Below are positions 37,406 to 49,755 of a stretch of 64,000 bases of DNA, piece after piece. Every line of letters begins with the position of its first letter. The first letter of the stretch is position 1. A program made the translations under genes and the position numbers. The notes beneath the pieces were generated by a model. It was given only the letters and a program-made list of their open reading frames with translations, did no database searches and was not told the origin of the DNA. Source of the stretch: Archangium lipolyticum (GTDB lineage Bacteria; Myxococcota; Myxococcia; Myxococcales; Myxococcaceae); NCBI RefSeq assembly GCF_024623785.1, contig NZ_JANKBZ010000032.1:62001-126000 (forward strand), in the 5' to 3' direction.

Positions 37406-37987
37406 ATGGCGTCGGACAAGGCCGATCTCGCGGCGCGGCTCGTCGTGGCCCAGCGGGGAGATTCCGTTCTCGGGCTCTTCTTCCAGAGCGTCTTCGACCT
37501 CGTCCGGCAGCGGGCGGGGGAGGGGGGGCTGGAGAGGCTGCGAGCCGATGGGCTCTCACGGGACTACGGGGAGCTGCGCATGTACCCGGTGCAGGACTTC
37601 CTCCAACTGCTTTACGCCACCGGGGACGTGCTGGAGACCTCGTTCGGCTCCCCGGAGGCCGTCTTCCGGGCATGTGGGGAGCACGGCGTGGCGCGCTACG
37701 ACTCCGGCCCGGGCCGCTTCGTCTTCGGCGTCATCGCCCGGGGGGATCCGCACAGGTTCTTCTCGGTGGTGCAACTGGGCTACAGCGGCGCGGTGACGTA
37801 CGGGCGCCGCGAGTACCACCGCACCGGGCCGAAATCGGGCGTCATGTCCACCACGGGCGACATGGTGCCGCCGACCTACCATGAGGGGGTCCTCATCGGC
37901 GCGCTCCGGGTGCTCAAGCTCCAGGGGCGGGCCCAGGCGAGGCCTCAGTCCATCGACCGCGTGGAGTACGACATCTCCTGGTCGTGA
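37406..37987 (+). CDS. DUF2378 (TIGR02265) myxobacterial protein
   Basis: 193 residues, matching the Myxococcales-restricted family: FFQSVFDLVRQRAGE, DYPL-like YPVQDFLQLLYATGDVLE, AVFRACGEHGV and the C-terminal GALRVLKLQGRAQARPQSIDRVEYDISW. Function is not known for any member; genomes of the group carry many paralogues. The start follows AGGGGGG. It lies 27 bp after the amidase stop, so the two may be co-transcribed. Confidence 0.85.
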   Translation: MASDKADLAARLVVAQRGDSVLGLFFQSVFDLVRQRAGEGGLERLRADGLSRDYGELRMYPVQDFLQLLYATGDVLETSFGSPEAVFRACGEHGVARYDSGPGRFVFGVIARGDPHRFFSVVQLGYSGAVTYGRREYHRTGPKSGVMSTTGDMVPPTYHEGVLIGALRVLKLQGRAQARPQSIDRVEYDISWS

Positions 37988-38019: not shown

Positions 38020-39429
38020 TCAGGCCGCGCGTGAGGTGGAGATGGCGAGCGGCCGTGGCCCCGGCGTCCGGGCGGCCTTGTCGGGCTGGACCGTGAGCAC
38101 CTTGAGCACCATGCGCGGGGAGAACATGGCGGTGGGTGACTCGATCATGTGCTGCACGCGCGCGAAGAGCCTCAGCGCCTCCTCGTCGTAGCCCGCGAGC
38201 TGCTGGAACCGGTTGCCGTACCAGTTCATCAGGGCGAACCCCGGCGGGCGCTTGCCCTCCACCTCGGGGAAGGCCAGATCGCCGGCCGTCGCGAGGGCCC
38301 AGGGCCCCGCGAGGATCTCTCCCGCCCGTCGGCGGTAGCGATCGGAGGCCCCGCGCACGCCCTGGCGCAGACACTCGCCCAGCGCCTCGGCCTGCATGGC
38401 GCCCGTGCTCATGCCCTGGCCGTAGATGGGATTGAACGAGCAGACGGCATCCCCCACCACGGCCAGCCCCTCGGGGAAGCGGGACATGCGCTCGTAGTGA
38501 CGGCGCTGGTTATGAGGGAAGCGGTAGAGGTGGATGGGGCCGAGTGGCTCGGCGTTCTTGATGGCCTCGTACAGGTGCGGCTGGGGCAGGCCGCGGGCGA
38601 ACTCGAGGAACGCCGCGTCCTCCGCCGTCGTGAGGCACTCGCCCAGCCAGCCGCCCACCAGCACCAGCCAGCGGTTGTCTTCGATCTCCTGGATGATGCC
38701 GAGCCGCCGTTCCTGCGTCAGCTTGGGAGCGATCGCCAGGGACCGCCACCCTGGCTCGAACCCCTGCGGCTGGCGGTAGAGACGGCTGGCGTAGCCCACG
38801 TTCACGTGGATGCGCGTCTCCTCCACGCGGGGGTAACCCAGCGCCTCGAGCCACTGGGGCGTGCGCGAGCCACGGCCGCTGGTGTCCACCACCAGGTCGG
38901 CCTCGAGCGTCTCCTCCTGCCCGCCGCCCGGAGCCTGCAACTGGAGTCCCGTGACGCGTGTCCGGTCTCCGCTCGTCTTCAATCCCACCGCTTCCCTGCC
39001 ATCGAGGATGCGCACGTTGGGAAGGGCCTGGAGACGCTGACGGACGACCCACTCGAGCAGCAACCGGCTCAGGGAGGCGGCCTTCACGTCGCTGCGGAAC
39101 CGTGGGCGCCAGCTGCCGGCCCCGAACGAGGCGGTGGTCTCGACCACGTCCAGGAACTCCACTCCGGTGGCCGTGATGTCCTCCTGGATGCCCGGGAAGA
39201 TGCCGGCGAGGATGTCCATTCCCCGCGTGAGCAGACCATGGACGTGCTGCGCCTGGGGGACGCCCTTGCGCGGCAGCGGCCCGTCCGGGAAGCGATCGCG
39301 CTCCACGAGGGTGACGCGCTCGAAGTGGCGGGACAGCAGGCCGGCGGACATCAACCCGGCCATGCTGCCGCCATAGACGATGGCGTGCGTACCGGCGCGC
39401 GAGGAGGGAAGGGGCGTCGAAGTGCTCAT
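38020..39429 (-). CDS. FAD-dependent monooxygenase/oxidoreductase
   Basis: 469 residues. Dinucleotide-binding N-terminus HAIVYGGSMAGLMSAGLLSR..VTLVERD, with the second FAD motif GDAVCSFNPIYGQGMSTGAMQAEALG. The fold is that of aromatic hydroxylases, geranylgeranyl reductases and related flavoproteins. It is the last gene of the nine-gene cluster, and its ATG overlaps the PIG-L stop (ATGA), so it is translationally coupled. It may oxidise or reduce a hydrophobic part of the cluster product; the substrate is unknown. Confidence 0.9.
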   Translation of the reverse strand: MSTSTPLPSSRAGTHAIVYGGSMAGLMSAGLLSRHFERVTLVERDRFPDGPLPRKGVPQAQHVHGLLTRGMDILAGIFPGIQEDITATGVEFLDVVETTASFGAGSWRPRFRSDVKAASLSRLLLEWVVRQRLQALPNVRILDGREAVGLKTSGDRTRVTGLQLQAPGGGQEETLEADLVVDTSGRGSRTPQWLEALGYPRVEETRIHVNVGYASRLYRQPQGFEPGWRSLAIAPKLTQERRLGIIQEIEDNRWLVLVGGWLGECLTTAEDAAFLEFARGLPQPHLYEAIKNAEPLGPIHLYRFPHNQRRHYERMSRFPEGLAVVGDAVCSFNPIYGQGMSTGAMQAEALGECLRQGVRGASDRYRRRAGEILAGPWALATAGDLAFPEVEGKRPPGFALMNWYGNRFQQLAGYDEEALRLFARVQHMIESPTAMFSPRMVLKVLTVQPDKAARTPGPRPLAISTSRAA

Positions 39430-40274
39430 ACGGGATGTGAGCGTAGGAGACCTCGTGCTGGCCGTCGAATCGCGGAATTCGGGACCTGTTCCGTGAGTGC
39501 CTCCCGCAGGCCCGGATCGAAATCGGCTCCCGCGAGGAACACCTCGGCATGGCCGGTGCGGCCATGGGCCGCCGCCTCGCGCTGATGGAAGGCCGTCAGC
39601 GTGGGGCCCACGGCCTGGGCTCCACCGAACTGGAAGCCGACCTGGGTCCGGTAGCAGGTGCATCCGGTCACCTTGCGCGGCAGCTCGGCCGACACGTCCA
39701 CCACCAGGGGCCGCAGGTCCGAGGGCAGCGCCGGATCGGGCCGGGCTCCGGGTTGGCGCACGGCATAGGGCGTGTCGCGGTACCACAGGGTGCGGGAGTC
39801 CCACGCTCCCAAGGACGGCATCAGCCGCGCCACCTGCACGTGGTCCACATGACTGCCCAGCGCTTGCGGTGCCAGCACGAGGTCCGGTTGCAGCTCGGCC
39901 AGCAGCGGCGCGAGCCGTTTCACCACCGCCGTGCCGATGCGATCGTCCTCGCGTGGCGGGGTGAAGAGGGCCGGCGCGCTGTCATAACCGCGGTGTGGCG
40001 CCTCCGGCAGGTTGGTCCACACCAGCACATCCACCTCCATCAGCTCCGCGAAGTCGCGATCCTCCTCGCGGCGCATCTCCATGTAGTCCACGTCCGGCGG
40101 GAGGCCCTTGTCCGTCTGACAGGCGAGCGCGAAGCCCGAGGGGTGGGGCACGGAGCGGGTGAAGACGGTGACGAGGGCCACCGTCCACCCCCGGGCCTTC
40201 AACCGGGCCAGGGTGCCACCGCAGGAGAAGGCGACGTCGTCCAGGTGGGGCGAGAGGAAGAGGGCGGTGCTCAT
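39426..40274 (-). CDS. PIG-L (LmbE-like) N-acetylglucosaminyl deacetylase
   Basis: 282 residues. Zinc-site motifs of the PIG-L family: PHLDDVAFSCGGTLA near the N-terminus and SHVDHVQVA, in place of HPDH. Family members deacetylate N-acetylglucosaminides: MshB (GlcNAc-inositol) in mycothiol synthesis, BshB in bacillithiol synthesis and PIG-L in GPI anchors. Overlaps on both sides (ATGA) tie it to the glycosyltransferase and the FAD enzyme. With inositol-1-phosphate synthase and a GT4 enzyme in the same operon, GlcNAc-inositol is the natural substrate guess. The C-terminus (TGCTCYRTQVGFQFGGAQ) is unusually Cys-bearing. Confidence 0.92.
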   Translation of the reverse strand: MSTALFLSPHLDDVAFSCGGTLARLKARGWTVALVTVFTRSVPHPSGFALACQTDKGLPPDVDYMEMRREEDRDFAELMEVDVLVWTNLPEAPHRGYDSAPALFTPPREDDRIGTAVVKRLAPLLAELQPDLVLAPQALGSHVDHVQVARLMPSLGAWDSRTLWYRDTPYAVRQPGARPDPALPSDLRPLVVDVSAELPRKVTGCTCYRTQVGFQFGGAQAVGPTLTAFHQREAAAHGRTGHAEVFLAGADFDPGLREALTEQVPNSAIRRPARGLLRSHPV

Positions 40275-41557
40275 AGCAGGTGGGGTGCGCTCCGGAAGCG
40301 GCAGGAGGGATCTGCGGTGTCCACGGTGGTGGCCGGGTCGTACAGCCGCGTCCAGCCCGTGTCCGGACCGGTGCCGGTGAGCTGGCCGTACACCTGCTGG
40401 ATGCGCCGGCCCACGGCCTGCCACGAGTACAGCTCCCGCACCTCGGCGAGGGCCATGCGCGCCAGGCGGCGGCGCAGCTCCGGATCGTCCAGCATCCGGG
40501 CGATGGCATCGGCCAGGGCGCGGGCGTCCCGGGGCGGGACGAGCAGTGCGTTCCGGCCGTCCTCCAGGCAGTCCACCACGCCCACCGCTCGCGTGGAGAC
40601 GATGGGCAGGCCGGTGGCCATGGCCTCGAGGATCGTGTTGGAGAAGCCCTCCGAGTACGTGGGCGAGACGAACAGGTCGCCGCGCCGGTACACGGCGGGC
40701 GCGTCGTCGTAGGAGGCATGGCCGGTGAGCTCGACGCTGTCACGCAGCCCCAGCGTGGTCACCCGGTTGCGCACGGCGTTGAGGTCCGGGCCGATGCCGG
40801 ACACCACCAGCTTCAGCTCGCGGCCGTTGCGCGTCAGCATGCGCATCGCGTCCAGCAGCTCCATCACGCCTTTCCGCGCGTCCACGCGGCCGTGGTAGAG
40901 CAGCACCGGCGGATTTCCCATCGCGCCGAGAGAGGGCTCGTCACGCGGGTGGAAGCGGCGCGTGTCGGTGGCGCCGGGCACGAGGGTGAAGCGCTCCAGC
41001 GGCGTCCCGTGGTGGCCCCGCACCTCCTCGGCGAAGGAGCGGCTGCCGATGAGCAGCGCCCCGGCGTGGCCCAGCACCGCCAGCATGGCCTGCTTGTGTG
41101 TCCCGCAGCAGGTGCCCACCCAGTGGCCGTCACCGCCCTGGATGGACACCACGTTGGGCAGCCCGAGCCGCCGGCTCGCCTCCAGCGCGGCCAGCCCGCA
41201 CGGGTAGCCGTACTGCGCGTGGATGAGGTCGAACGGACGCCGCCGGTGCTCGCGCTCCACGGTGGCCACCATGTCCTCGACGTCCTGCTCGAAGCTGGCC
41301 GGCAGACCGTCGCCGACGCGCTGCTCGCCCAGGGACTCGCGGCCCAACACCTTGACACCGGGGACATGAGGCGGAGGCCCGCCGCCGTACACCGAGACAC
41401 CCGCCCGGTCATTGCGGTACTGGCTGACCATCGTCACGTCGTGACCACAGTCCGCCAGCTCCCGCACCAGGTTGAGGGCGTAGACGCTCATCCCCGAGAT
41501 GGCCGGGAAGAAGCGCCGGGAGATGAAGCAGACCCGCAGCGAGTTCCCGCCGCTCAT
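40271..41557 (-). CDS. GT4-family glycosyltransferase
   Basis: 428 residues, GT-B fold. Acceptor side: RVCFISRRFFPAISGMSVYALNLVRELADCGHDV. Donor side: the retaining-GT EX7E pattern in YSEGFSNTILEAMATGLPIVSTRAVG, and LLYHGRVDARKGVMELLDAMRML. It resembles MshA/PIG-A-type transferases in domain layout, which join GlcNAc to inositol-1-phosphate or phosphatidylinositol. Overlaps with both neighbours. A Cys pair occurs in VGTCCGTHKQ. The donor and acceptor are inferred from context only. Confidence 0.92.
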   Translation of the reverse strand: MSGGNSLRVCFISRRFFPAISGMSVYALNLVRELADCGHDVTMVSQYRNDRAGVSVYGGGPPPHVPGVKVLGRESLGEQRVGDGLPASFEQDVEDMVATVEREHRRRPFDLIHAQYGYPCGLAALEASRRLGLPNVVSIQGGDGHWVGTCCGTHKQAMLAVLGHAGALLIGSRSFAEEVRGHHGTPLERFTLVPGATDTRRFHPRDEPSLGAMGNPPVLLYHGRVDARKGVMELLDAMRMLTRNGRELKLVVSGIGPDLNAVRNRVTTLGLRDSVELTGHASYDDAPAVYRRGDLFVSPTYSEGFSNTILEAMATGLPIVSTRAVGVVDCLEDGRNALLVPPRDARALADAIARMLDDPELRRRLARMALAEVRELYSWQAVGRRIQQVYGQLTGTGPDTGWTRLYDPATTVDTADPSCRFRSAPHLL

Positions 41558-42420
41558 GCCGCCACCTCCGCGTCCGAGGGCATGTGGGCCCGCAGCCACT
41601 CGCGAGCCTGGGGCACCATGGCGTGCGCGCGGTGCGAGTCGCGCGACAGCTCGACGCACACGAGCTTGTCGAAGCGGACCTCCACCAGCGCCCGGAGCAC
41701 CGAGGCCACATCCAGGTCTCCCTCGCCGAAGGGCAGGTGCTCGTGCACGCCGCGCTTCATGTCCTCCAGCGCCACCGTGCCCAGCACCGGCGCCAGCTCG
41801 CGCACCGCGTCCGCGGGCACCCGCTCCTGCGTCACCATCAGGTGTCCCACGTCCAGCGCCAGCCGGATGGGGGCCGCGCCGCGCCGTGCCACCTCCTCCT
41901 GGAGGCGGCGCCACTCGTCCACCGTCTCCACCCGCATGCCCGGCTCCGGTTCCACCGCGGCCACCACGCCGCGCGACGCCGCGTAGTCGGACAGCCGGGC
42001 CACGCCATCCACGAGCCAGCCCCAGGCCGCCTCCGCGTCCACTCCGGGCTGGGGCACTCCGGCCCAGAAGGACACCGCCTCGCCCCGGCAGATGGCGCAG
42101 ATGTCCACCGCCCTCCGGAGGAAGTCGAGCCGCCGCTCGCGGCCCTCCGGTTCCGGGGTGATCAACGTGGGCTCGTGCTTGGCCCGTGGCTCCAGCAGGA
42201 AGCGCGCGCCCGTCTCCACCACCAGCCCCAGGCCGAGCCGCTCCAGCAGGCCCGCCAGCATCTCGGCGCGGTGTCCCAGCCGGGGCGCGAAGGGATCGAA
42301 GTGGTGATGATCCAGCGTGAGGGCGACGCCGTCGTAGCCGCTGTCGGCGATGAGCCGCAGCGCGTCCTGGAAGCGGTGATGGGCGGTGCCGTTGGTGTTG
42401 TAGGCGAAGCGCAGGCTCAT
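41554..42420 (-). CDS. Sugar-phosphate isomerase/epimerase-like TIM barrel
   Basis: 288 residues, AP-endonuclease-2/xylose-isomerase-like fold. Metal-ligand-type segments: VVAAVEPEPGM (Glu), RLALDVGHLM (Asp/His), LGTVALEDM and LVCVELSRDSHRAH (Glu and His). Relatives include inosose isomerase/dehydratase (IolE, IolI), which act on inositol-derived ketones. This fits the inositol-1-phosphate synthase and Gfo/Idh-type dehydrogenase in the same operon. ATGA overlaps on both sides. Confidence 0.88.
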   Translation of the reverse strand: MSLRFAYNTNGTAHHRFQDALRLIADSGYDGVALTLDHHHFDPFAPRLGHRAEMLAGLLERLGLGLVVETGARFLLEPRAKHEPTLITPEPEGRERRLDFLRRAVDICAICRGEAVSFWAGVPQPGVDAEAAWGWLVDGVARLSDYAASRGVVAAVEPEPGMRVETVDEWRRLQEEVARRGAAPIRLALDVGHLMVTQERVPADAVRELAPVLGTVALEDMKRGVHEHLPFGEGDLDVASVLRALVEVRFDKLVCVELSRDSHRAHAMVPQAREWLRAHMPSDAEVAA

Positions 42421-43895
42421 GACAGACCTCCCCCGAAGCGGCGGCCGCGCAGCACCTGCTGCACGCTGTGGCGGCCCGGCTCGCGGTAGAGCGAGTACAG
42501 GCGCCCCACGCGCTGCTCGGCCAGGCGGACGTTGAACCAGGCCGGTCCTCCCAGCCGCTCCTCGGCGGCGGGCGTCAGGCGTACGGGCCGGGCGCCCTCC
42601 GGAGGCGTGCCGAGCCCGGCGAGCGGATCCTCGCGCGCCATCAGCCGGGCCACGTTCCGCTCACCGATGCGGTAGTAGGTCATCGTCTCCACCTCGAGTC
42701 CCGGCACGAGCACCTTGACCACGTGGATGGAGCGGTCCGGTGGAGACATGTCGGCCACGAGGATGTCGAAGCCGGCGGAGCGCAACTGATCCACCACCTG
42801 CTGGCAGCGGACCGCCGGATTCTCGGCGACCTGGACGCGGGGGAGGTCGGTGAAGCGCACCTTGCGGTTGCACGAGACCGTGCAGGCCGTCAGCGCGCGC
42901 AGCGCGTCCGCGGACATCCGGGCCCACTCGACCATGCCGTGCAGGGCGCGTTGCTCCTCCCGGTCCACGTTCACCTGGGGGAGGAACTGCTCCAGGTAGC
43001 CGGGAGGGGCGACGCGGGCCACGTGCTCCAGCGGCCCGTGCATGAAGGCCTTGCGTGCTCGCGAGCCGGCGTACTCCAGCAGGGCCTTGCGCAGGGCACG
43101 TTCCCGGTCCGGATCGGCCGCCTCTCCGCAGGCCGTCACCATCAGGGGCTGATCGCCCACGTGGGGATCCCTCGCCACCACGTACAGGTTCACCAGGCCG
43201 AACTCGGTGGTGGCCAGCTTGGGAATCACCTCGATGCCGAGCTGCCGGTAGCGCTCCAGCAGGGCCCGGACGTCGGGGGACAGCTCCGCCCCCTCCAGGT
43301 CGAGCACGACGCCCTGATCCATGGCGCGGAAGCACAGGCCATTGCCGTCGCGCTGGAGCAGCTCCAGCAGGGCGTGGGCCAGGGCCTGAGGGCGGGTGAG
43401 GCCGGCGCCCTGGCCGTTGGTGATGGGGAGGATGAGCGCTGATGAGCGGCCGTGGAGCTGGCTGGGATGGATGGCGACGTACTCCTCGGGCACCAGCACG
43501 GGCTCGCTGGTGGACAGCCGCCGCATCTGCACCCAGGTGAGCAGCATGTCCGGATGGTAGGGGCTACCGGCCGGCAGGCTCAGCGTGAGCGGATCCGCCA
43601 CTCCGGACTTCCCGCGCGAGCGCACCAGCTCGGTGTAGCTGCCATGGAAGCGGGGGAGGGTGGCCAGGGCGCGCTCGGCGAAGACCTCCTCGGCCAGCTC
43701 GCCGATGGCGCTGACCATGCCTTCCTCCTCGGTGGCGCCGTACCCGTGGGAGGTGATCCACGGTCCGCCCACCATGCGCAGGCTGGAGGCCACCACCGGG
43801 ATGCCGACGCGATCGATGGCATCGTCCCGGAACAACGACAGCTCTCCGGGCGGCATGGCCCGGGCGTAGGCGTCTCGTGCTGCTCTCAGGCTCAT
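42417..43895 (-). CDS. YcaO-family ATP-dependent protein
   Basis: 492 residues. YcaO ATP/Mg motifs in order: SAIGELAE (62-69, pattern SAxxExxE) after GYGATEEE; NGQGAG (160-165) with ALLELLQRD (about 175-183); and RKALLEYAGSR (269-279). The second motif has Gln181 where the family usually has Glu (ExxER), and the third has Gly where Gln is common. YcaO enzymes use ATP to activate amide oxygens and make azolines, thioamides or amidines in peptides and other metabolites. No E1-like partner, TfuA or precursor peptide gene is visible nearby. Overlaps ATGA with the genes before and after. Confidence 0.88.
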   Translation of the reverse strand: MSLRAARDAYARAMPPGELSLFRDDAIDRVGIPVVASSLRMVGGPWITSHGYGATEEEGMVSAIGELAEEVFAERALATLPRFHGSYTELVRSRGKSGVADPLTLSLPAGSPYHPDMLLTWVQMRRLSTSEPVLVPEEYVAIHPSQLHGRSSALILPITNGQGAGLTRPQALAHALLELLQRDGNGLCFRAMDQGVVLDLEGAELSPDVRALLERYRQLGIEVIPKLATTEFGLVNLYVVARDPHVGDQPLMVTACGEAADPDRERALRKALLEYAGSRARKAFMHGPLEHVARVAPPGYLEQFLPQVNVDREEQRALHGMVEWARMSADALRALTACTVSCNRKVRFTDLPRVQVAENPAVRCQQVVDQLRSAGFDILVADMSPPDRSIHVVKVLVPGLEVETMTYYRIGERNVARLMAREDPLAGLGTPPEGARPVRLTPAAEERLGGPAWFNVRLAEQRVGRLYSLYREPGRHSVQQVLRGRRFGGGLS

Positions 43896-44725
43896 GTCAG
43901 TTCCTCCAGGGCAATGGGCCGGGTGTGAGGCATTCCGGCGAGCAATCGATCGAACAGGGCCAGCGCATGGGCGCGGGTGACGCCTCGGGCCGGTTCGAAG
44001 GGGGTGAAGACGTTCTCGAAGGGAAGCCGCTCGAGCACCGCGCGGTAGCGGCGCAGCTCGCCGTGGCTCAGGGGGATGGCGGCGTGGAAGCCCTTGTGGC
44101 TCGAGAGCGCCACCGGCCGGCCCCGGGAGTCCAGCTCCACCTTGAGGACGTCTCCGCAGAAGAGCGAGCGCGTGCGCGCGTCGTACAGCACGCACTGGCC
44201 CTCGTAGTGGCCGCCCACGCAGTGCAGCGTGAGGCCGGGGGCCAGCTCGTGCTCGTCGTCCACGGGCCAGCGGACCTGGAAGGCCTTGGTGTAGGGCACC
44301 GCGTCGCGGTGCAGCACGAGCAGCGGATCGAACCGCTCCTGCAACTGCCACAGCGCGCCGAAGCCGTGGGGATGCGAGGCGGACAGCACCTGGATGCCCC
44401 CCAGCGAGGCGAGGTGCTCCAGCGCCCGCCGCGAGTACCAGGGGGCACCCTCGAAGGCCACGTTGCCCTCGGGCCGCCGCAGCAGCCAGCCGGTGCCGCC
44501 CAGCCCGAAGCTTGGGGTGCACTGGAAGCCGAGCACTCCCGGCAGCGCCTCGTACCAGGAGGTCTCCAACGACTCCGCCACCTGGGCGGCGGAGCGGAAC
44601 TCCCAGCCGTTCTCGGGCAGGGCGTTGCGCACGTCCATGCAGATGGGACAGTGCGGAGGCCGCTCGTGGACGAACCACGGCTGCCAGGAGCCGCAGTTGC
44701 AGCAGGCGTAGCGGCTCAACGGCAT
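43892..44725 (-). CDS. Zinc-ribbon plus metallo-beta-lactamase-fold protein
   Basis: 277 residues from the ATG at 44725, which overlaps the upstream stop by 10 bp; a GTG at 44755 is less likely. Residues ~6-40 form a rubredoxin-like zinc ribbon (YACCNCGSWQPW and PHCPICMDV). The rest resembles an MBL fold, but the metal motif reads ASHPHGFGALW rather than HxHxDH. Later ligand-like positions are GGHYEGQCVLY and LFCGDVLKVEL. A thiol hydrolase, lactonase or redox role is possible; the diverged metal site makes it uncertain. Its end overlaps the YcaO start (ATGA). Confidence 0.82.
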   Translation of the reverse strand: MPLSRYACCNCGSWQPWFVHERPPHCPICMDVRNALPENGWEFRSAAQVAESLETSWYEALPGVLGFQCTPSFGLGGTGWLLRRPEGNVAFEGAPWYSRRALEHLASLGGIQVLSASHPHGFGALWQLQERFDPLLVLHRDAVPYTKAFQVRWPVDDEHELAPGLTLHCVGGHYEGQCVLYDARTRSLFCGDVLKVELDSRGRPVALSSHKGFHAAIPLSHGELRRYRAVLERLPFENVFTPFEPARGVTRAHALALFDRLLAGMPHTRPIALEELT

Positions 44726-45753
44726 GGTGCGGCCTCCCAGGCGTGGGGCTCGCACGCCTGGCTCAGCAGGTTGAGCAGGCGCACGTCCCGCTCGGGCGCG
44801 AAGGGATAGGGGCGGCCCGCCAGCACGCAGGAGGAGAAGGCCTCCACCTGGTGGAGGAAGGGGCTCCGGTCCTCCTCGGGGGAGATGGGCACCACGGTCT
44901 CCACGCCGGTGGCCGCCTCCGTGAGCGTCAGTGTGCCGCCGGGCGTCTGGCCCATCGTCTTGCAGGCCAGCGCACGGGCCCGGGTGCCGATCAGCTCCAG
45001 GGTGCGGCGCGGGTAGGTGTCCGGGCAGTTGTAGGCCACCTGAAGCAGGCCCAGGGTGCCGCTGCGGAACCTCCCCATGAGCATGGCGCCGTCATCCACC
45101 GGGTAGTCATGGACGCGCCGCTGCATCAGGGCCGTGAGGGACGTCCACTCGTCGTCCAGCAGCACCTCCAGCAGATCGATTCCGTGGGGTGCCAGGTCGA
45201 TCATCGCGCCGCCCCCCGCCTGGTGCGGGTCGATGCGCCAGTTGCGCGGCGCCCAGTCGCGAGGCAGCCAGCAGGCGTAGTGGATGCGCGCCTGGGTGAT
45301 GGTGCCGAGCACGCCCTCGCGCACCAGGGTGCGCAGCTTCCGGTGGGCGGCGTGGTGGCGCTGGTCGAAGGCGGTGGCGTACTGGACGCCCGCGCGCCGG
45401 CACGCCTTCACCATGAGGCGGCCCTCCTCGGGGCGGATGGCCATGGGCTTCTCGCACAGCACGTGCCTGCCGGCGGCGGCGCAGGCCACCGTCACCTGCG
45501 CGTGCACGTGGTTGGGCGTGGCCACGTAGACGGCCTCCACCTCCGGGTGGGCCAGCACCTCCTCCAACCGTGTGTACCGGGCCGCGCCGTCACCGGGCAT
45601 GCGCGCCAGCGATTCGGAATCCGGATCGCACAACGCCACCAGCCGGGCATTGCCCGCCTGCGACAAGGCTGGTGCCACATAGTCTCGGGCCACCCAACCA
45701 CAGCCCACGATGGCCCACCCGAGCCGCCGCGAGCCCTGGAGCGTACGTTCCAT
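44716..45753 (-). CDS. Gfo/Idh/MocA-family oxidoreductase
   Basis: 345 residues. Rossmann motif AIVGCGWVARDYVAPALSQ, nucleotide contact VATPNHVHA, the conserved EKPMA catalytic lysine segment and GGGAMIDLAPHGIDLLE with the metal- or substrate-side histidine. Family members oxidise sugars and cyclitols, including inositol dehydrogenase (IolG). In this operon an inositol-phosphate or glycoside substrate is plausible. The ATG at 45753 has a GAGAGG site upstream. The stop overlaps the MBL gene start. Confidence 0.9.
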   Translation of the reverse strand: MERTLQGSRRLGWAIVGCGWVARDYVAPALSQAGNARLVALCDPDSESLARMPGDGAARYTRLEEVLAHPEVEAVYVATPNHVHAQVTVACAAAGRHVLCEKPMAIRPEEGRLMVKACRRAGVQYATAFDQRHHAAHRKLRTLVREGVLGTITQARIHYACWLPRDWAPRNWRIDPHQAGGGAMIDLAPHGIDLLEVLLDDEWTSLTALMQRRVHDYPVDDGAMLMGRFRSGTLGLLQVAYNCPDTYPRRTLELIGTRARALACKTMGQTPGGTLTLTEAATGVETVVPISPEEDRSPFLHQVEAFSSCVLAGRPYPFAPERDVRLLNLLSQACEPHAWEAAPCR

Positions 45754-45795
45754 GAGCACACCTCTCGAAAGTTCATGGCCCGAGGAGGGCCGTGT

Positions 45796-46728
45796 TCAGG
45801 GCTGGATGCCCGCCGCGGCCAGCACCGCGTTCTCGTAGGACTGCATGGGGCCGTCGTGGACCAGCTCCAGGTCCTCCAATGCGTGGCGGAGGGTGAAGCC
45901 GGCGGCGCGGGCGTGGAAGTCCATCTCCAACACCCGGTCCAGCACATCGGCGGCGTGGAAGGCGCGGGCCTCCGGCGTGTCGGTGCGTGGCAGCACGCGC
46001 CGGGCCTCCCGGATGCGAGTGGCCGGTCCTGCTGGCAGCGTGGCCAGCACCTCCTCGGTGAGCCGCTCCACCATGGGCCCCACCGCATCACCCAGCAGCA
46101 CGTCCCCTGCGTAGCCGGCGTCCGGCAGCACCACGTTGAAGAGGTGGTGGCTCAACCCGGCCACGAAGGGCGGGGCCGGGCTGGCACCGAAGAGGGGCGC
46201 CACGAGCACCGCCGCAACGGCGACGGCGTAGCAGTGGTCCGCGTGGCTCTCCGCGGGCTCCAGGAGGATGCGGGGACGGCCGGGGAGCGTGGCCCCGGCG
46301 CGTGGCTGACGGACCAGCCGCTCCACGAAGGGCGGGGGTGTGGTGCCCTCGGTGCCGAGCGGCTCCGCGAGCGCGGCGTGCAGCCGCTCCCGGAGACCCG
46401 GCTCCAGGGGACCGGCCGCCGCGTCCAGTGCGCGGTGGAGGAGCTCCAACGCGCGGGGAGGTGACAGACCGGCCCGGTGCAGCACCTCGGCGTCGATGCC
46501 TCCGAGCCGCACCGAGACCAGGGCGAGCGCCGTCTCGCGCAACGCCAGCGCCTCCGGCTCCACGCCCGCGACGAGCGCCGCCCAGGCTCGCCGGAACCCG
46601 CGTGCCGCCAGACCCTCCAGGTGGTCGGCGGTGCGTACCCGCTTGAGGTCCATCAACTCCCCCAACAGCGGGCGCAGTGTGGCCAGACGGTCCGGGACCG
46701 CGGCCGTGTCCGAGACGGAGGCGCTCAT
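45796..46728 (-). CDS. Diverged HD-domain-like protein
   Basis: 310 residues, not assigned by full-length similarity. The second half resembles YfbR/HDDC2-type HD phosphohydrolases. SHADHCYAVAVAAVLVAPLFG matches the first helix with its metal histidine. AGLSHHLFNVVLPDAGYAGD stands where LLHDxxE..xGD is expected. EARAFHAADVLDRVLEMD holds the final aspartate. The central HD doublet has become HH. The first half (residues 1-140) is helical and Leu/Arg-rich. It follows inositol-1-phosphate synthase by 3 bp. A phosphatase acting on a cyclitol phosphate is the obvious guess; the changed doublet leaves activity open. Confidence 0.6.
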   Translation of the reverse strand: MSASVSDTAAVPDRLATLRPLLGELMDLKRVRTADHLEGLAARGFRRAWAALVAGVEPEALALRETALALVSVRLGGIDAEVLHRAGLSPPRALELLHRALDAAAGPLEPGLRERLHAALAEPLGTEGTTPPPFVERLVRQPRAGATLPGRPRILLEPAESHADHCYAVAVAAVLVAPLFGASPAPPFVAGLSHHLFNVVLPDAGYAGDVLLGDAVGPMVERLTEEVLATLPAGPATRIREARRVLPRTDTPEARAFHAADVLDRVLEMDFHARAAGFTLRHALEDLELVHDGPMQSYENAVLAAAGIQP

Positions 46729-46731
46729 GGG

Positions 46732-47952
46732 TTAGCCCCGAAGAAGCTCGTTGCCGACGGTGGGCCGCACACTCCCGGTGGACAACCACTTCATGAGGCG
46801 CCGCTGCTGCTCGGGCATGGCGTGCTCGGGCGTGCGGCCGTCCTGCGTCATGGGCGCCTTGAAGAAGCAGCCCAGCGAGTCGATGACCCCACCTTCACCG
46901 CGGCGTTTGGCCAGGTCCAGCGTGCGCGCCAGCTCCACCACCAGCGGCGCGGCCAGGATGGAGTCCTTGCACAGGAAGTTGACCTTGAGCTGCATGGGTT
47001 GGCCGAGGAAGCCGAGGACGTCGATGTTGTCCCAGGCCTCCTTGTTGTCGCCGCGCGGCCGGTAGTATTGGATTTGGACGATGTGGTCCTGGACCTTGTA
47101 GCCGAGGATGCTGTCCAGTACGGCGCCCTTGGTGTCGAGCTTCGAGGCCTTCGAGGCCGGGTCGTTGAGGGCCTCGCCGTCCCGGTTGCCCAGGATGTTG
47201 GTGGAGTACCAGCCGGACACGTACAGCGCGCGATCCCTCAAGGCCGGGGCGAGCACCGTCTTGAGCAGCGTCTGGCCCGTCTTCCCATCCTTGCCCGCGA
47301 CGGGCGCGCCGTTGCGCCGGGCCAGCTCCAGGAGCGCCGGCACGTCGGCGGCGACGCTCGGCGTGAAGTTGGCGAAGGGGATGCCTCGCGAGACGGCGGC
47401 GTAGGCGTAGAGCATGGCCGGGCTGATCTCCGGATCATTGGCGTCGATCGCCGCCTCGAAGGCCTCCGGCGTGGCGAACTGGGGCAGCGCCGCGTTCACC
47501 GGACGCTCGGTCGAGGCGCAGTTGATCATCACCAGCCGGTCCACCTGCTGCTCGCGTTGGAAGCGTTCCAGATCCTGATGGATGGCTTCCACCTGGGCGC
47601 GCAGGCTGCTCATCTTCTTGTTGGATGAGCCCACCACGTTGCGACAGAAGTTCCTGTTGGACACGGCGGGCCAGGGCCGCATCTTCGACAACACGGGTTC
47701 CACTGCCTGGAGCTGAGCCTCGGTCAGCACGCCATGGGTGCGTGCGGCCTTGGCCAGATCATCATCGTACAAATCCCAGCCCCCGAAGATGAGCGCGCCG
47801 TAGTCCACCAGACCCGCGCCCTTCACTCCGGCCAGAGGCAGACCCGTGGTGTCCACCACGCCCCGCTTGAGCAGCTCCATCCCCGCGATGGCAGTGGTCG
47901 CCACGGCCCCACCCATCCCCACGACCGCGATCCCCAGACGATCCCCGTACAT
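46732..47952 (-). CDS. ino1: Inositol-1-phosphate (inositol-3-phosphate) synthase
   Basis: 406 residues. NAD-binding motif VVGMGGAVATTAIAGMELL at the N-terminus. Later family segments are FANFTPSVAADVPALLELA, CKDSILAAPLVVELARTLD and VIDSLGCFFKAPM, including the KDS catalytic lysine region. It converts glucose-6-phosphate to L-myo-inositol-1-phosphate in the cytoplasm using NAD+. The start is the ATG at 47952 behind GGGGAG; an in-frame ATG at 48063 has no ribosome site. First gene of the nine-gene cluster, preceded by 180 bp that must hold its promoter. Confidence 0.93.
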   Translation of the reverse strand: MYGDRLGIAVVGMGGAVATTAIAGMELLKRGVVDTTGLPLAGVKGAGLVDYGALIFGGWDLYDDDLAKAARTHGVLTEAQLQAVEPVLSKMRPWPAVSNRNFCRNVVGSSNKKMSSLRAQVEAIHQDLERFQREQQVDRLVMINCASTERPVNAALPQFATPEAFEAAIDANDPEISPAMLYAYAAVSRGIPFANFTPSVAADVPALLELARRNGAPVAGKDGKTGQTLLKTVLAPALRDRALYVSGWYSTNILGNRDGEALNDPASKASKLDTKGAVLDSILGYKVQDHIVQIQYYRPRGDNKEAWDNIDVLGFLGQPMQLKVNFLCKDSILAAPLVVELARTLDLAKRRGEGGVIDSLGCFFKAPMTQDGRTPEHAMPEQQRRLMKWLSTGSVRPTVGNELLRG

Positions 47953-48132: not shown

Positions 48133-48172
48133 GGAAAAAGAGCCCATCGCGAGTATGTTTCGCGACGGGCTC
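48133..48172 (-). terminator. Rho-independent terminator of the MATE gene
   Basis: Twelve-base stem AGCCCATCGCGA / TCGCGACGGGCT (one mismatch), loop gtatgtt, with an A-run on the plus strand just left of it (a T-run on the minus strand). Orientation and position fit the end of the MATE transporter transcript, isolating it from ino1. Confidence 0.88.
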
Positions 48173-48197
48173 CGGGCACTGTGAGGGATTGGGTGCG

Positions 48198-49643
48198 CTA
48201 GAGGGCGCGAGCCTTCCACCGTCCGCGCCGGAAGAAGACGGCGCTCAGCGTGCCGAGCGCGCAATAGCCGAGGGCGATGGCCAGGAAGACGCCAGAGGGG
48301 CCGAGCCCCAACGTCTTGGAGAGGACGTAGGCCAGGGGCAGCTGCAACATCCAGGAGCAGAGCAGGTTGATGATGGTGGGCGTGGTGGTGTCCCCCGCGC
48401 CATTGAAGGCATGCGGGAGGACCGTACCAAAGGCGTAGAAGACCATGCTGCAGCTCACGATTCGCAGGCAGCGCGTGGCATGCAGCACCACCTCGGCCTC
48501 CGAGGTGAAGGCGCGCACGAGCGGATCGGCGAACACCAGGAAGCCGAGCGCCATCGCGCCGAGCAGCAGCAGGGTGTGGAAGCTCGCCCGCCACGCCGCG
48601 CGCTCGGCCCGCTCCGGATCCCTGGCACCCAGACTCTGGCCCACCAGGGTGCCCGCGGCGTGGCTCATGCCCCAGGAGGGCTGCTGGGCGAAGAGGAGGA
48701 TGCGCATGGCGATGGTGTAGCCGGCCATCGCCGCGCTGCCGAAGCTGGAGACGAGGCGCATCAACACCAGCCAGCTGGACATGATCAGCAGGGATTGGAC
48801 GAGGGCGCTGCCCGACAGCCGCAGCAGGGAGAGCAGGGTGGCGGGCTCCAGCCGCAGGTGGCGTCGCCGGATGACGAGCCGGCCGCTGCCGCGCACCAGC
48901 CCATGGAGCTGGTAGAGCACGCCCACGGAGCGCCCGAAGGTGGTGGCCACCGCCGCGCCGAGCACGCCCAGCTCGGGCAGGGGGCCCAGGCCGAAGATGA
49001 GACAGGGGGCGAGTACGATGTTGAGGGCGTTGGCCAGCCACAGCGCGCGCATGGAGGTGGCCGCGTCCCCCGCGCCGCGGAGGATGGCGCTGATGAGGAA
49101 GAGCAGCGTGAGGACGAGGGTGCTGCCCAGCATCACGCGTGTGTAGGAAGCGCCGTGCTCCACCACCCAGGGCGAGGCACCCAGGGCCGACAGCAGCGGG
49201 CGGGCGAACAGGATGCCCCCCACCGCCACGGGCAGGGCGAGCAACAGTCCGAGCCACAGGGACTGCATGGCCGCGCTCGCGGCGCGCTCCGGATCCTTCT
49301 CCCCGATGCGCCGGGCCACCAGGGCGGTGGCGCCGATGGACAGGCCCATGGGCAGCGTCTGGACGAACGTGAGCATGGACTCCGTCATGCCCACGGTGGC
49401 CACGGCCTCCGCGCCCAGTCGCGAGACGAAGAAGACGTCCACCAGGGCGAAGATGGACTCCATCACCATCTCCAGCACCATGGGCACCGAGAGCAGCAGG
49501 AAGGCGCGATCCACGGAGCCGGCGGTGAGGTCGTGCCTGGCGCCGCGCAGGGCGTCCCACAGCACGGGGAGCCAGCCCCTGCCTTCCTCGATGGACGGGG
49601 AGGCGGCGGACGTGAGGAGCTCGGGTGTGGAGGGCTGCGACAT
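48198..49643 (-). CDS. MATE-family multidrug/metabolite efflux transporter
   Basis: 481 residues with about 12 membrane helices. Family segments: LLLSVPMVLEMVMESIFALVDVFFVSRLG, GLSIGATALVARRIGE and GMSHAAGTLVGQSLGARDPERAERAAW. It exports cationic or hydrophobic compounds by Na+ or H+ antiport. ATG 49643 gives MSQPSTPE; a TTG at 49700 is possible, and no ribosome site is clear for either. It sits directly upstream of the inositol-type cluster on the same strand but is separated by a terminator. It could export the cluster product, though that is only a guess from position. Confidence 0.92.
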   Translation of the reverse strand: MSQPSTPELLTSAASPSIEEGRGWLPVLWDALRGARHDLTAGSVDRAFLLLSVPMVLEMVMESIFALVDVFFVSRLGAEAVATVGMTESMLTFVQTLPMGLSIGATALVARRIGEKDPERAASAAMQSLWLGLLLALPVAVGGILFARPLLSALGASPWVVEHGASYTRVMLGSTLVLTLLFLISAILRGAGDAATSMRALWLANALNIVLAPCLIFGLGPLPELGVLGAAVATTFGRSVGVLYQLHGLVRGSGRLVIRRRHLRLEPATLLSLLRLSGSALVQSLLIMSSWLVLMRLVSSFGSAAMAGYTIAMRILLFAQQPSWGMSHAAGTLVGQSLGARDPERAERAAWRASFHTLLLLGAMALGFLVFADPLVRAFTSEAEVVLHATRCLRIVSCSMVFYAFGTVLPHAFNGAGDTTTPTIINLLCSWMLQLPLAYVLSKTLGLGPSGVFLAIALGYCALGTLSAVFFRRGRWKARAL

Positions 49644-49755
49644 GGAATGAAAGGCGGAGGGGCCCGTATGGGTGTGAGGGACGCCAGGGAACGGGTCCAA
49701 CCGCGTTTTTCATCCACGGCCGGGCGAGGGTCGCCCGGTCGCCAGGACTGGAGCC

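Follow-up and report, generated by a model that had tools for sequence, protein, structure and literature searches.

What could a bacterium make with an operon that sets a myo-inositol-1-phosphate synthase (Ino1), a GT4 glycosyltransferase, a PIG-L deacetylase and a YcaO enzyme side by side? This question is raised by a 64,000-nucleotide stretch of Archangium lipolyticum DNA (the window; contig NZ_JANKBZ010000032.1, positions 62,001 to 126,000), from a genome of 12.6 Mb in the family of Myxococcus and Corallococcus. A sequence-only reading of the window had described nine consecutive minus-strand genes and proposed that they make a new glucosaminyl-cyclitol metabolite. The operon was found to be a conserved cluster present in further genomes of the family and on plasmids of other phyla. 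With confidence evenly balanced for and against, we read it as a mobile cluster for a small molecule of the amino-sugar-cyclitol (glucosaminyl-cyclitol) type. Myxobacteria would export this product, and YcaO together with an HD-fold protein would activate a carbonyl in it.

Conservation and patchy distribution of the operon

Nine back-to-back minus-strand open reading frames (ORFs) were confirmed at 38020-47952. The reported overlaps also hold, as six of the eight junctions overlap by 4-10 bp; from Ino1 onwards there is a gap of 3 bp (Ino1/HD), a gap of 42 bp (HD/Gfo), an overlap of 10 bp (Gfo/MBL) and five 4-base overlaps. The gene families named earlier were supported, with Pfam matches above cut-off for all except the HD and MBL proteins. 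The features are as follows.

46732-47952, minus: Ino1, myo-inositol-1-phosphate synthase, second paralog of the genome (PF07994, E 2.5e-66; PF01658, E 3.2e-33)
45796-46728, minus: putative HD-fold protein with a variant motif (PF13023, E 8e-4, under cut-off; predicted structure)
44716-45753, minus: Gfo/Idh/MocA oxidoreductase (PF01408, E 6.2e-27; PF22725, E 1.6e-29)
43892-44725, minus: MBL-fold protein whose N-terminal segment has four cysteines and is zinc-ribbon-like (PF00753, E 5e-4, under cut-off)
42417-43895, minus: YcaO-family enzyme (PF02624, E 5e-57)
41554-42420, minus: xylose-isomerase-like TIM barrel (PF01261, E 1.5e-37)
40271-41557, minus: GT4 glycosyltransferase (PF00534, E 5.1e-38; PF13692, E 1.6e-36)
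39426-40274, minus: PIG-L family de-N-acetylase (PF02585, E 1.6e-18)
38020-39429, minus: FAD-dependent oxygenase-like gene, 4-bp overlap with PIG-L, a local addition (PF01494, E 2.1e-9)
48198-49700, minus: MATE-family exporter, on the upstream side of the operon (PF01554, E 3.4e-66)
48139-48173, minus: intrinsic terminator separating the MATE gene from the operon (14 pairs, 9 G-C)

The terminator is the one placed earlier at 48133-48172; six terminator-like sites occur in the region against a shuffle mean of 2.1.

Absence of this neighbourhood from every other genome had been named beforehand as a ground for giving up the proposal. The neighbourhood proved to be conserved both in other genomes of the family and on plasmids. 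Orthologs of the YcaO gene (E<=1e-60, 60-94% identity) are present in 31 of 96 family genomes, the window genome included, and fall in five of 26 genera: 16/16 genomes of g26, 4/4 of g11, 4/7 of g15, 2/6 of g1 and 5/27 of g23. GT4 was detected in 25 of the 96 genomes (E<=1e-40) and the HD family in 30 of 195 genomes of the phylum (E<=1e-4), in each case in YcaO carriers exclusively; the sole carrier without HD is G080. One ortholog filter required at least 45% identity and at least 75% query coverage.

Twenty-six loci were mapped in addition to the window, some of them representing one genome present in two collections. All eight genes in the order Ino1-HD-Gfo/Idh-MBL-YcaO-TIM-GT4-PIG-L were found in ten loci (L031, L032, L060, L066, L067, L068, L070, L071, L075, L076). 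Four loci (L062-L065) possess seven genes with HD elsewhere, four (L069, L072-L074) represent an HD-YcaO module, three (L033, L034, L036) are cut by contig ends and five (L035, L061, L077-L079) are decayed. L121 is a further complete copy beyond these 26. In the four carriers of genus g15 the main copy lacks HD. Each of these genomes has HD at another site, grouped with a methyltransferase and a second YcaO in a module that has open frames and coexists with the main cluster. The gene set is retained even when it is split over two sites. The ratio of nonsynonymous to synonymous substitution (dN/dS) was 0.07-0.38 for all ten genes tested between the window and G003; a second genome pair, compared over eight genes, gave 0.16-0.36. 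Distance matrices of the eight core genes correlate with r 0.91-0.98 (up to 17 clusters), and when myxobacteria are taken by themselves r is 0.79-0.99; shared descent alone could give much of this correlation. This set consisted of 17 chosen complete or near-complete clusters, where L108 was represented by the best-scoring piece of each of its two interrupted genes; the residue-conservation alignment leaves L108 out for those genes.

Comparison of the flanks showed the cluster as part of an accessory block. In four congeners without this YcaO, a spermine-synthase-like gene and an amidase are 436-456 bp apart (between matched segments). The same pair is convergent in the window and G003 too, but with about 12.4 kb between the two genes. 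The 12.4-kb block includes the MATE gene, which the earlier operon boundary had left out and which belongs to the myxobacterial unit. MATE adjoins Ino1 in 13 complete or HD-less copies having upstream sequence. Its 69-100% identity group occurs in 21 of the 96 family genomes, every one a YcaO carrier, and a separate 53-65% group occurs widely across the family. MATE of the linked group is missing from ten YcaO carriers out of 31 (G032, G070, G072, G073, G074, G075, G079, G080, G081, G090), some of them being fragmented assemblies or decayed copies. The FAD gene, earlier counted as an operon member, falls outside the conserved set, as it was found among the fetched loci in the window and G003 (L060) alone. 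A methyltransferase dependent on S-adenosylmethionine (SAM), about 400 amino acids long (PF08241), lies between HD and the next gene in several copies and is present in 11 of the 96 family genomes, all YcaO carriers; it was not found in the window genome (E<=1e-30). The earlier gene list thus stood as a conserved neighbourhood, short of MATE and of this methyltransferase, which was not visible from the window. In the ORF maps of neighbouring regions, where ORFs of high third-position GC were kept, downstream genes are common only to subsets of loci. A DUF2378 gene at 37406-37987 (plus strand), convergent with the operon, also lies inside the block and has an ortholog at the same place in G003.

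The search was extended to 72,556 plasmid records by tblastn. The cluster was found on four plasmids in the same order with 39-65% identity, giving three phyla in all including the myxobacteria. GT4 (E<=1e-50), PIG-L (E<=1e-15) and HD (E<=1e-3) each match four records, the same four. Carriers include Methylobacterium aquaticum 22A and, among myxobacteria, Corallococcus species. Plasmid p546-2 of Roseomonas haemaphysalidis, isolated from a tick, shows the order Ino1-HD-methyltransferase-Gfo-MBL-YcaO-TIM-GT4-PIG-L. The clusters of Methylobacterium bullatum and M. aquaticum pMaq22A_1p (L109/L110) have no MBL match at 1e-6. In Hymenobacter volaticus (L108), isolated from air, no methyltransferase match was seen, and Gfo/Idh (L108:11072-12120) and GT4 (L108:15341-16572) are each interrupted, in two overlapping pieces, so this copy may be non-functional or mis-sequenced. 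MATE was considered as a part of every cluster copy and rejected, since none of the four plasmid copies gave a match.

Putative cyclitol and amino-sugar enzymes

The operon Ino1 scored 224.8 and 114.6 bits with its two Pfam domains. Its best solved relative is inositol-3-phosphate synthase 7nwr (E 6.9e-87), with 295 bits vs 59 bits for the five-membered-cyclitol-phosphate synthase 6k96, which by sequence likeness places it closest to a true synthase. The mycothiol-type model TIGR03450 gave 37.5 bits against a cut-off of 638. The other Ino1 of the window genome (G000:C6:174162-175367) is 45% identical to it. Ino1 of either kind was found in 125 of the 195 phylum genomes. The operon type is listed in 25 genomes, with 76-100% identity among carriers, and 23 of these possess a further Ino1; the idea of an extra dedicated Ino1 in every carrier was rejected, as G003 and G015 show the operon copy alone (E<=1e-30). 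The nearest solved relative of the Gfo/Idh protein is 1,5-anhydro-D-fructose reductase 2glx (E 8.2e-44).

The TIM barrel is 49-53% identical to that of actinobacterial (Streptomyces) ebo clusters, where it lies one gene away from Ino1. Twenty-nine plasmid records without the present cluster have a TIM match, and three ebo regions among them were inspected. All three hold Ino1 and the TIM barrel together, in the order Ino1, prenyltransferase, TIM barrel, EboA, TatD, EboE, phosphodiesterase. The pairing of the two genes in both settings suggests that the TIM barrel probably acts on an Ino1-derived cyclitol in both. The likeness is confined to this pair within one operon, and the ebo Ino1 is just 34-37% identical to the operon Ino1. 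The other operon proteins showed no match to the ebo proteins tested: BLASTP (1e-3) found none to EboA, TatD, EboE and EboF of L111, and no prenyltransferase domain occurs among the nine genes. In turn, the three ebo clusters have no annotated GT4, PIG-L or YcaO. These clusters (L111, L112, L113) also have no annotated sugar-phosphate cyclase (EboD) in the operon, and two of the three adjoin a ScyD/ScyE-family gene. In the literature ebo has been linked to scytonemin precursor transport in cyanobacteria (PMC6282210) and proposed to make an isoprenoid-cyclitol (PMC5133447).

The remaining sugar enzymes recall mycothiol, as Ino1, GT4 and a PIG-L deacetylase are joined in one logic in both. The PIG-L protein is nearest to deacetylase 6iiy and teicoplanin pseudoaglycone deacetylase 2x9l among solved structures, and its PHLDD and HxDH metal-site residues are invariant in nine aligned rows. 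The cluster differs from mycothiol in adding YcaO, HD, Gfo/Idh, TIM and MBL and in being accessory in its lineage, not universal. MshC and MshD had been reported missing, and there is indeed no such match among the nine genes, with no search of the rest of the genome. The parallel drawn with MshA and MshB stood at the level of the GT4 and PIG-L families; neither protein reached the cut-off of its NCBIfam model. GT4 scored 91.7 bits with MshA (TIGR03449, cut-off 462.5) and 78.7 bits with BshA (cut-off 273.7), while PIG-L scored 16.2 bits with MshB (TIGR03445, cut-off 224.35) and 44 bits with BshB1 (cut-off 182.5). These scores touch a further possibility, that GT4 and PIG-L make a glucosamine conjugate of a non-inositol acceptor, as bacillithiol is made with malate, with Ino1, TIM and Gfo supplying a separate building block and the product being a low-molecular-weight thiol or redox cofactor. 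GT4 and PIG-L do show some similarity to both thiol pathways, yet all four scores are under cut-off, the set has no cysteine ligase, and a housekeeping thiol would hardly be expected to show so patchy and accessory a distribution. We regard this as the least likely of the readings considered.

The same enzymes could instead supply a membrane lipid or envelope glycan with a glucosaminyl-inositol head group, so that the product would resemble a glycosylphosphatidylinositol (GPI) and not be a free molecule. The combined PIG-L, GT4 and inositol logic resembles GPI, and several neighbours are membrane proteins that would act as flippases or extenders: MATE, an LPG-synthase-like membrane protein (PF03706) downstream in both Methylobacterium plasmids (L109:17939-19126, L110:18366-19493), and an MdoH-annotated transferase after PIG-L in Roseomonas (L107:17248-18810). 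In L109 the PF03706 gene comes after a uracil-DNA-glycosylase-like gene. However, these membrane neighbours vary by phylum, no lipid-handling enzyme is conserved across the copies, and YcaO, HD and the methyltransferase would have no role in such a scheme. A GPI-like product is therefore considered unlikely, though it deserves more weight than a thiol.

The YcaO enzyme, its HD-fold neighbour and the MBL protein

Membership of the operon enzyme in the YcaO superfamily is clear from PF02624 (194.1 bits, cut-off 25.7) and TIGR00702 (81.4 bits, cut-off 75.65). Its nearest solved relative is MJ1094 (6pe3, E 4e-12), a McrA-type thioamidating YcaO. The models of known classes were not reached, as the azoline (SagD) model TIGR03604 gave 119 bits (cut-off 219.25) and the McrA-thioamidation model TIGR03266 gave 113.9 bits (cut-off 365). 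Azoline-forming YcaOs are described in PMC8442711 as having a proline-rich C terminus. This feature was seen in none of 30 myxobacterial rows (window included) and the four plasmid copies, which have at most three unclustered prolines in the last 20 residues; for this the C termini were read to the stop, as several earlier YcaO rows ended at BLAST match ends. TfuA (PF07812) is present in all 16 genomes searched and lies beside the cluster in none of the 13 carriers among them. For every one of the three other YcaOs of the window genome a TfuA match lies no more than about 0.5 kb away, and the operon YcaO has none. Of the groups offered by the sequence-only reading, the azoline and, in its TfuA-dependent form, the thioamide are thereby weakened.

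Most characterised YcaOs act on peptides or proteins. Examples of protein substrates are uL16 (PMC13063428) and McrA (PMC5589413). A peptide precursor was looked for in 13 Ino1 leaders (MATE to Ino1). They contain 15 closed sense ORFs of at least 15 amino acids, and similar ones occur only among L062-L065, from one genus; no leader ORF common beyond one genus was found in a search limited to these leaders. The window has intergenic gaps of just 3 and 42 bp, and the reading of the cluster itself as one for a ribosomally synthesised and post-translationally modified peptide (RiPP) found no support in the leaders searched. The YcaO domain is what the cluster has in common with the YcaO-RiPP and YcaO-TfuA systems, from which it differs in having no adjoining TfuA, no precursor seen in the leaders and no proline-rich C terminus and in falling under the SagD cut-off. 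YcaO and HD might still modify a peptide or protein encoded elsewhere, in a RiPP-like manner or by protein thioamidation, with the sugar-cyclitol genes decorating it or working separately. The substrates of most known YcaOs, the relation to MJ1094 and the separate module of HD, methyltransferase and second YcaO in four genomes all fit this. However, those four genomes hold the cyclitol cluster too, HD and YcaO in G032 and G081 seem to be what deletions left over, and no TfuA or widely shared leader ORF accompanies the cluster. We give this possibility the same modest weight as the GPI-like one, that is, improbable but not negligible.

The HD-YcaO pairs of G032 and G081 had been considered as a minimal functional module. 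This was rejected and the pairs are read as deletion remnants, because a C-terminal MBL fragment remains beside YcaO in L079 and the YcaOs differ at E66. The remnants in genus g11 (L079:7975-10503, L078:9035-11563, L077:7861-11526) contain HD, an MBL tail and YcaO, HD-YcaO alone, or only Ino1, YcaO and TIM, as if formed by internal deletions. Some copies possess two or three tandem YcaO genes (L033:260-4842, L075:8541-11560, L032:5193-8190), each 65-70% identical to the window YcaO.

The HD protein is proposed as the partner of YcaO, since it stays with YcaO even where the cyclitol genes are elsewhere. Its AlphaFold2 model, built from 12 sequences, has a predicted local distance difference test (pLDDT) score of 87.6 and is predicted to consist of a helical N-terminal part followed by a C-terminal domain (residues 129-310). 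VIA-align placed this domain with human HD domain-containing protein 2 (4l7e, Z 13.3, rmsd 3.0, 168 aligned); of its first 16 rows, 12 were titled HD-domain, YfbR or metal-dependent phosphohydrolase. A Z of 13 can, however, arise between helical bundles from their arrangement alone. With Foldseek there was no match at E 0.001, and PDB sequences searched with a profile gave no hit up to E 1. The predicted HD fold thus draws on VIA-align together with the sub-threshold HD_3 (PF13023) match. Across 19 myxobacterial and four distant rows, residues H162, H165, H194, H195 and D264 do not vary. The canonical HD metal motif is H...HD...D.

The MBL domain PF00753 is over cut-off in the Roseomonas ortholog. 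The AlphaFold2 model of the window protein was poor (pLDDT 57.6) and was not used. Plasmids of Pantoea, Cronobacter and Rhizobium commonly carry relatives with 25-30% identity, the match beginning near the cysteine-rich N terminus. Two such regions were inspected (L114:7001-7726, L115:7001-7702); they contain no such cluster and gave no function.

A proposed pathway and its place among known systems

From the families present, a pathway to an amino-sugar-cyclitol can be drawn. Ino1 would convert glucose-6-phosphate to inositol-1-phosphate, and the TIM barrel and Gfo/Idh could oxidise and isomerise or dehydrate the ring. GT4 would add N-acetylglucosamine and PIG-L would take off the acetyl group, leaving a free amine. 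The TfuA-less YcaO with its putative HD partner may spend ATP on activating a carbonyl of the small molecule, either amide or vinylogous, which an amine, giving an amidine- or imine-like product, or sulfur would then attack. MBL and, in other copies, the SAM methyltransferase may tailor the product, and MATE would export it in the myxobacterial version. The glucosaminyl-cyclitol proposal survives as an interpretation of the families and the conserved neighbourhood, while azoline, TfuA-type thioamide, the FAD gene and MshA/MshB identity have lost ground as its parts.

The weakest points of this pathway are the GT4 acceptor and the YcaO substrate, and a number of observations weigh against it. 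GT4 can be aligned with MshA and other GT4 structures over its C-terminal half, but in the N-terminal half only a stretch of about 40 residues aligns to MshA, which leaves an inositol acceptor as a conjecture; the MshA, MshB, BshA and BshB1 scores given above count on the same side. The Gfo/Idh protein scored 111 bits with the IolG model (cut-off 355), and the IolE NCBIfam model was far below its cut-off. In G003 and G015 the single Ino1 may have a housekeeping role as well. The cluster contains neither a phosphatase nor an aminotransferase nor an amide ligase, so the amide for YcaO is unexplained, as are the two or three YcaOs of some copies; a precursor peptide encoded elsewhere is possible. 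In the HD protein, H194-H195 seemingly stands where H-D is expected (a sequence-based placement), which makes phosphatase activity doubtful. Neither the methyltransferase, found in just 11 YcaO carriers out of 31, nor MBL, which the Methylobacterium copies lack, can be essential to the core. The four plasmid copies gave no MATE match, so export is not a common feature. This last observation and the two carriers without a second Ino1 brought our confidence in the amino-sugar-cyclitol slightly down to an even balance and slightly raised that in the GPI-like and peptide alternatives to their present low level.

A UV-absorbing sunscreen, built like mycosporine but from inositol, was also considered. 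Oxidation and dehydration by Gfo/Idh and the TIM barrel would turn inositol into a cyclohexane-dione or enone, and copies with the methyltransferase would then methylate this ring. Phosphorylation of the vinylogous acid or amide by YcaO would let an amine, such as the glucosamine from GT4/PIG-L, condense to an enaminone or imine chromophore. In mycosporines the corresponding task falls to ATP-grasp and NRPS-like (nonribosomal-peptide-synthetase-like) enzymes. Methylobacterium strains are reported to contain UVA-absorbing compounds (Yoshida 2017, cited in PMC12573535 and PMC8561711), and no result here ties them to the cluster. This idea is a long shot, ranking below the GPI-like and peptide alternatives and slightly above the thiol.

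Among known natural products, the aminocyclitol antibiotics kasugamycin and fortimicin come near the proposed amino-sugar-cyclitol, as they join an inositol-derived ring to an amino sugar and kasugamycin has an amidine group. The cluster differs from them in having no aminotransferase, and neither pathway is known to have a YcaO. The 6-thioguanine cluster is reported to have a YcaO-type enzyme acting on a small molecule, a non-peptide case, although the term YcaO does not occur in PMC7994395; it differs in that the substrate is a purine, not a sugar or cyclitol, and its other genes are not known to be shared. Among the matches listed from the open-licence literature, no report was found joining YcaO with inositol, cyclitol or PIG-L in such a cluster. 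Tests against the mycothiol, bacillithiol, ebo, azoline-YcaO and YcaO-TfuA systems set the cluster apart from each. On this ground we infer that it is of an undescribed kind, although it would fall within a known kind if all natural-product clusters were counted as one.

If the amino-sugar-cyclitol reading is true, these myxobacteria and the plasmid hosts carry a mobile natural-product pathway outside all cluster families tested, joining inositol, amino-sugar chemistry and YcaO. YcaO chemistry would be extended from peptides to sugar-cyclitols, and a role would be given to an HD-fold family found only in YcaO carriers among the 195 phylum genomes. The function of the Ino1 and TIM-barrel pair, common to the still unexplained ebo clusters, would then become directly testable.

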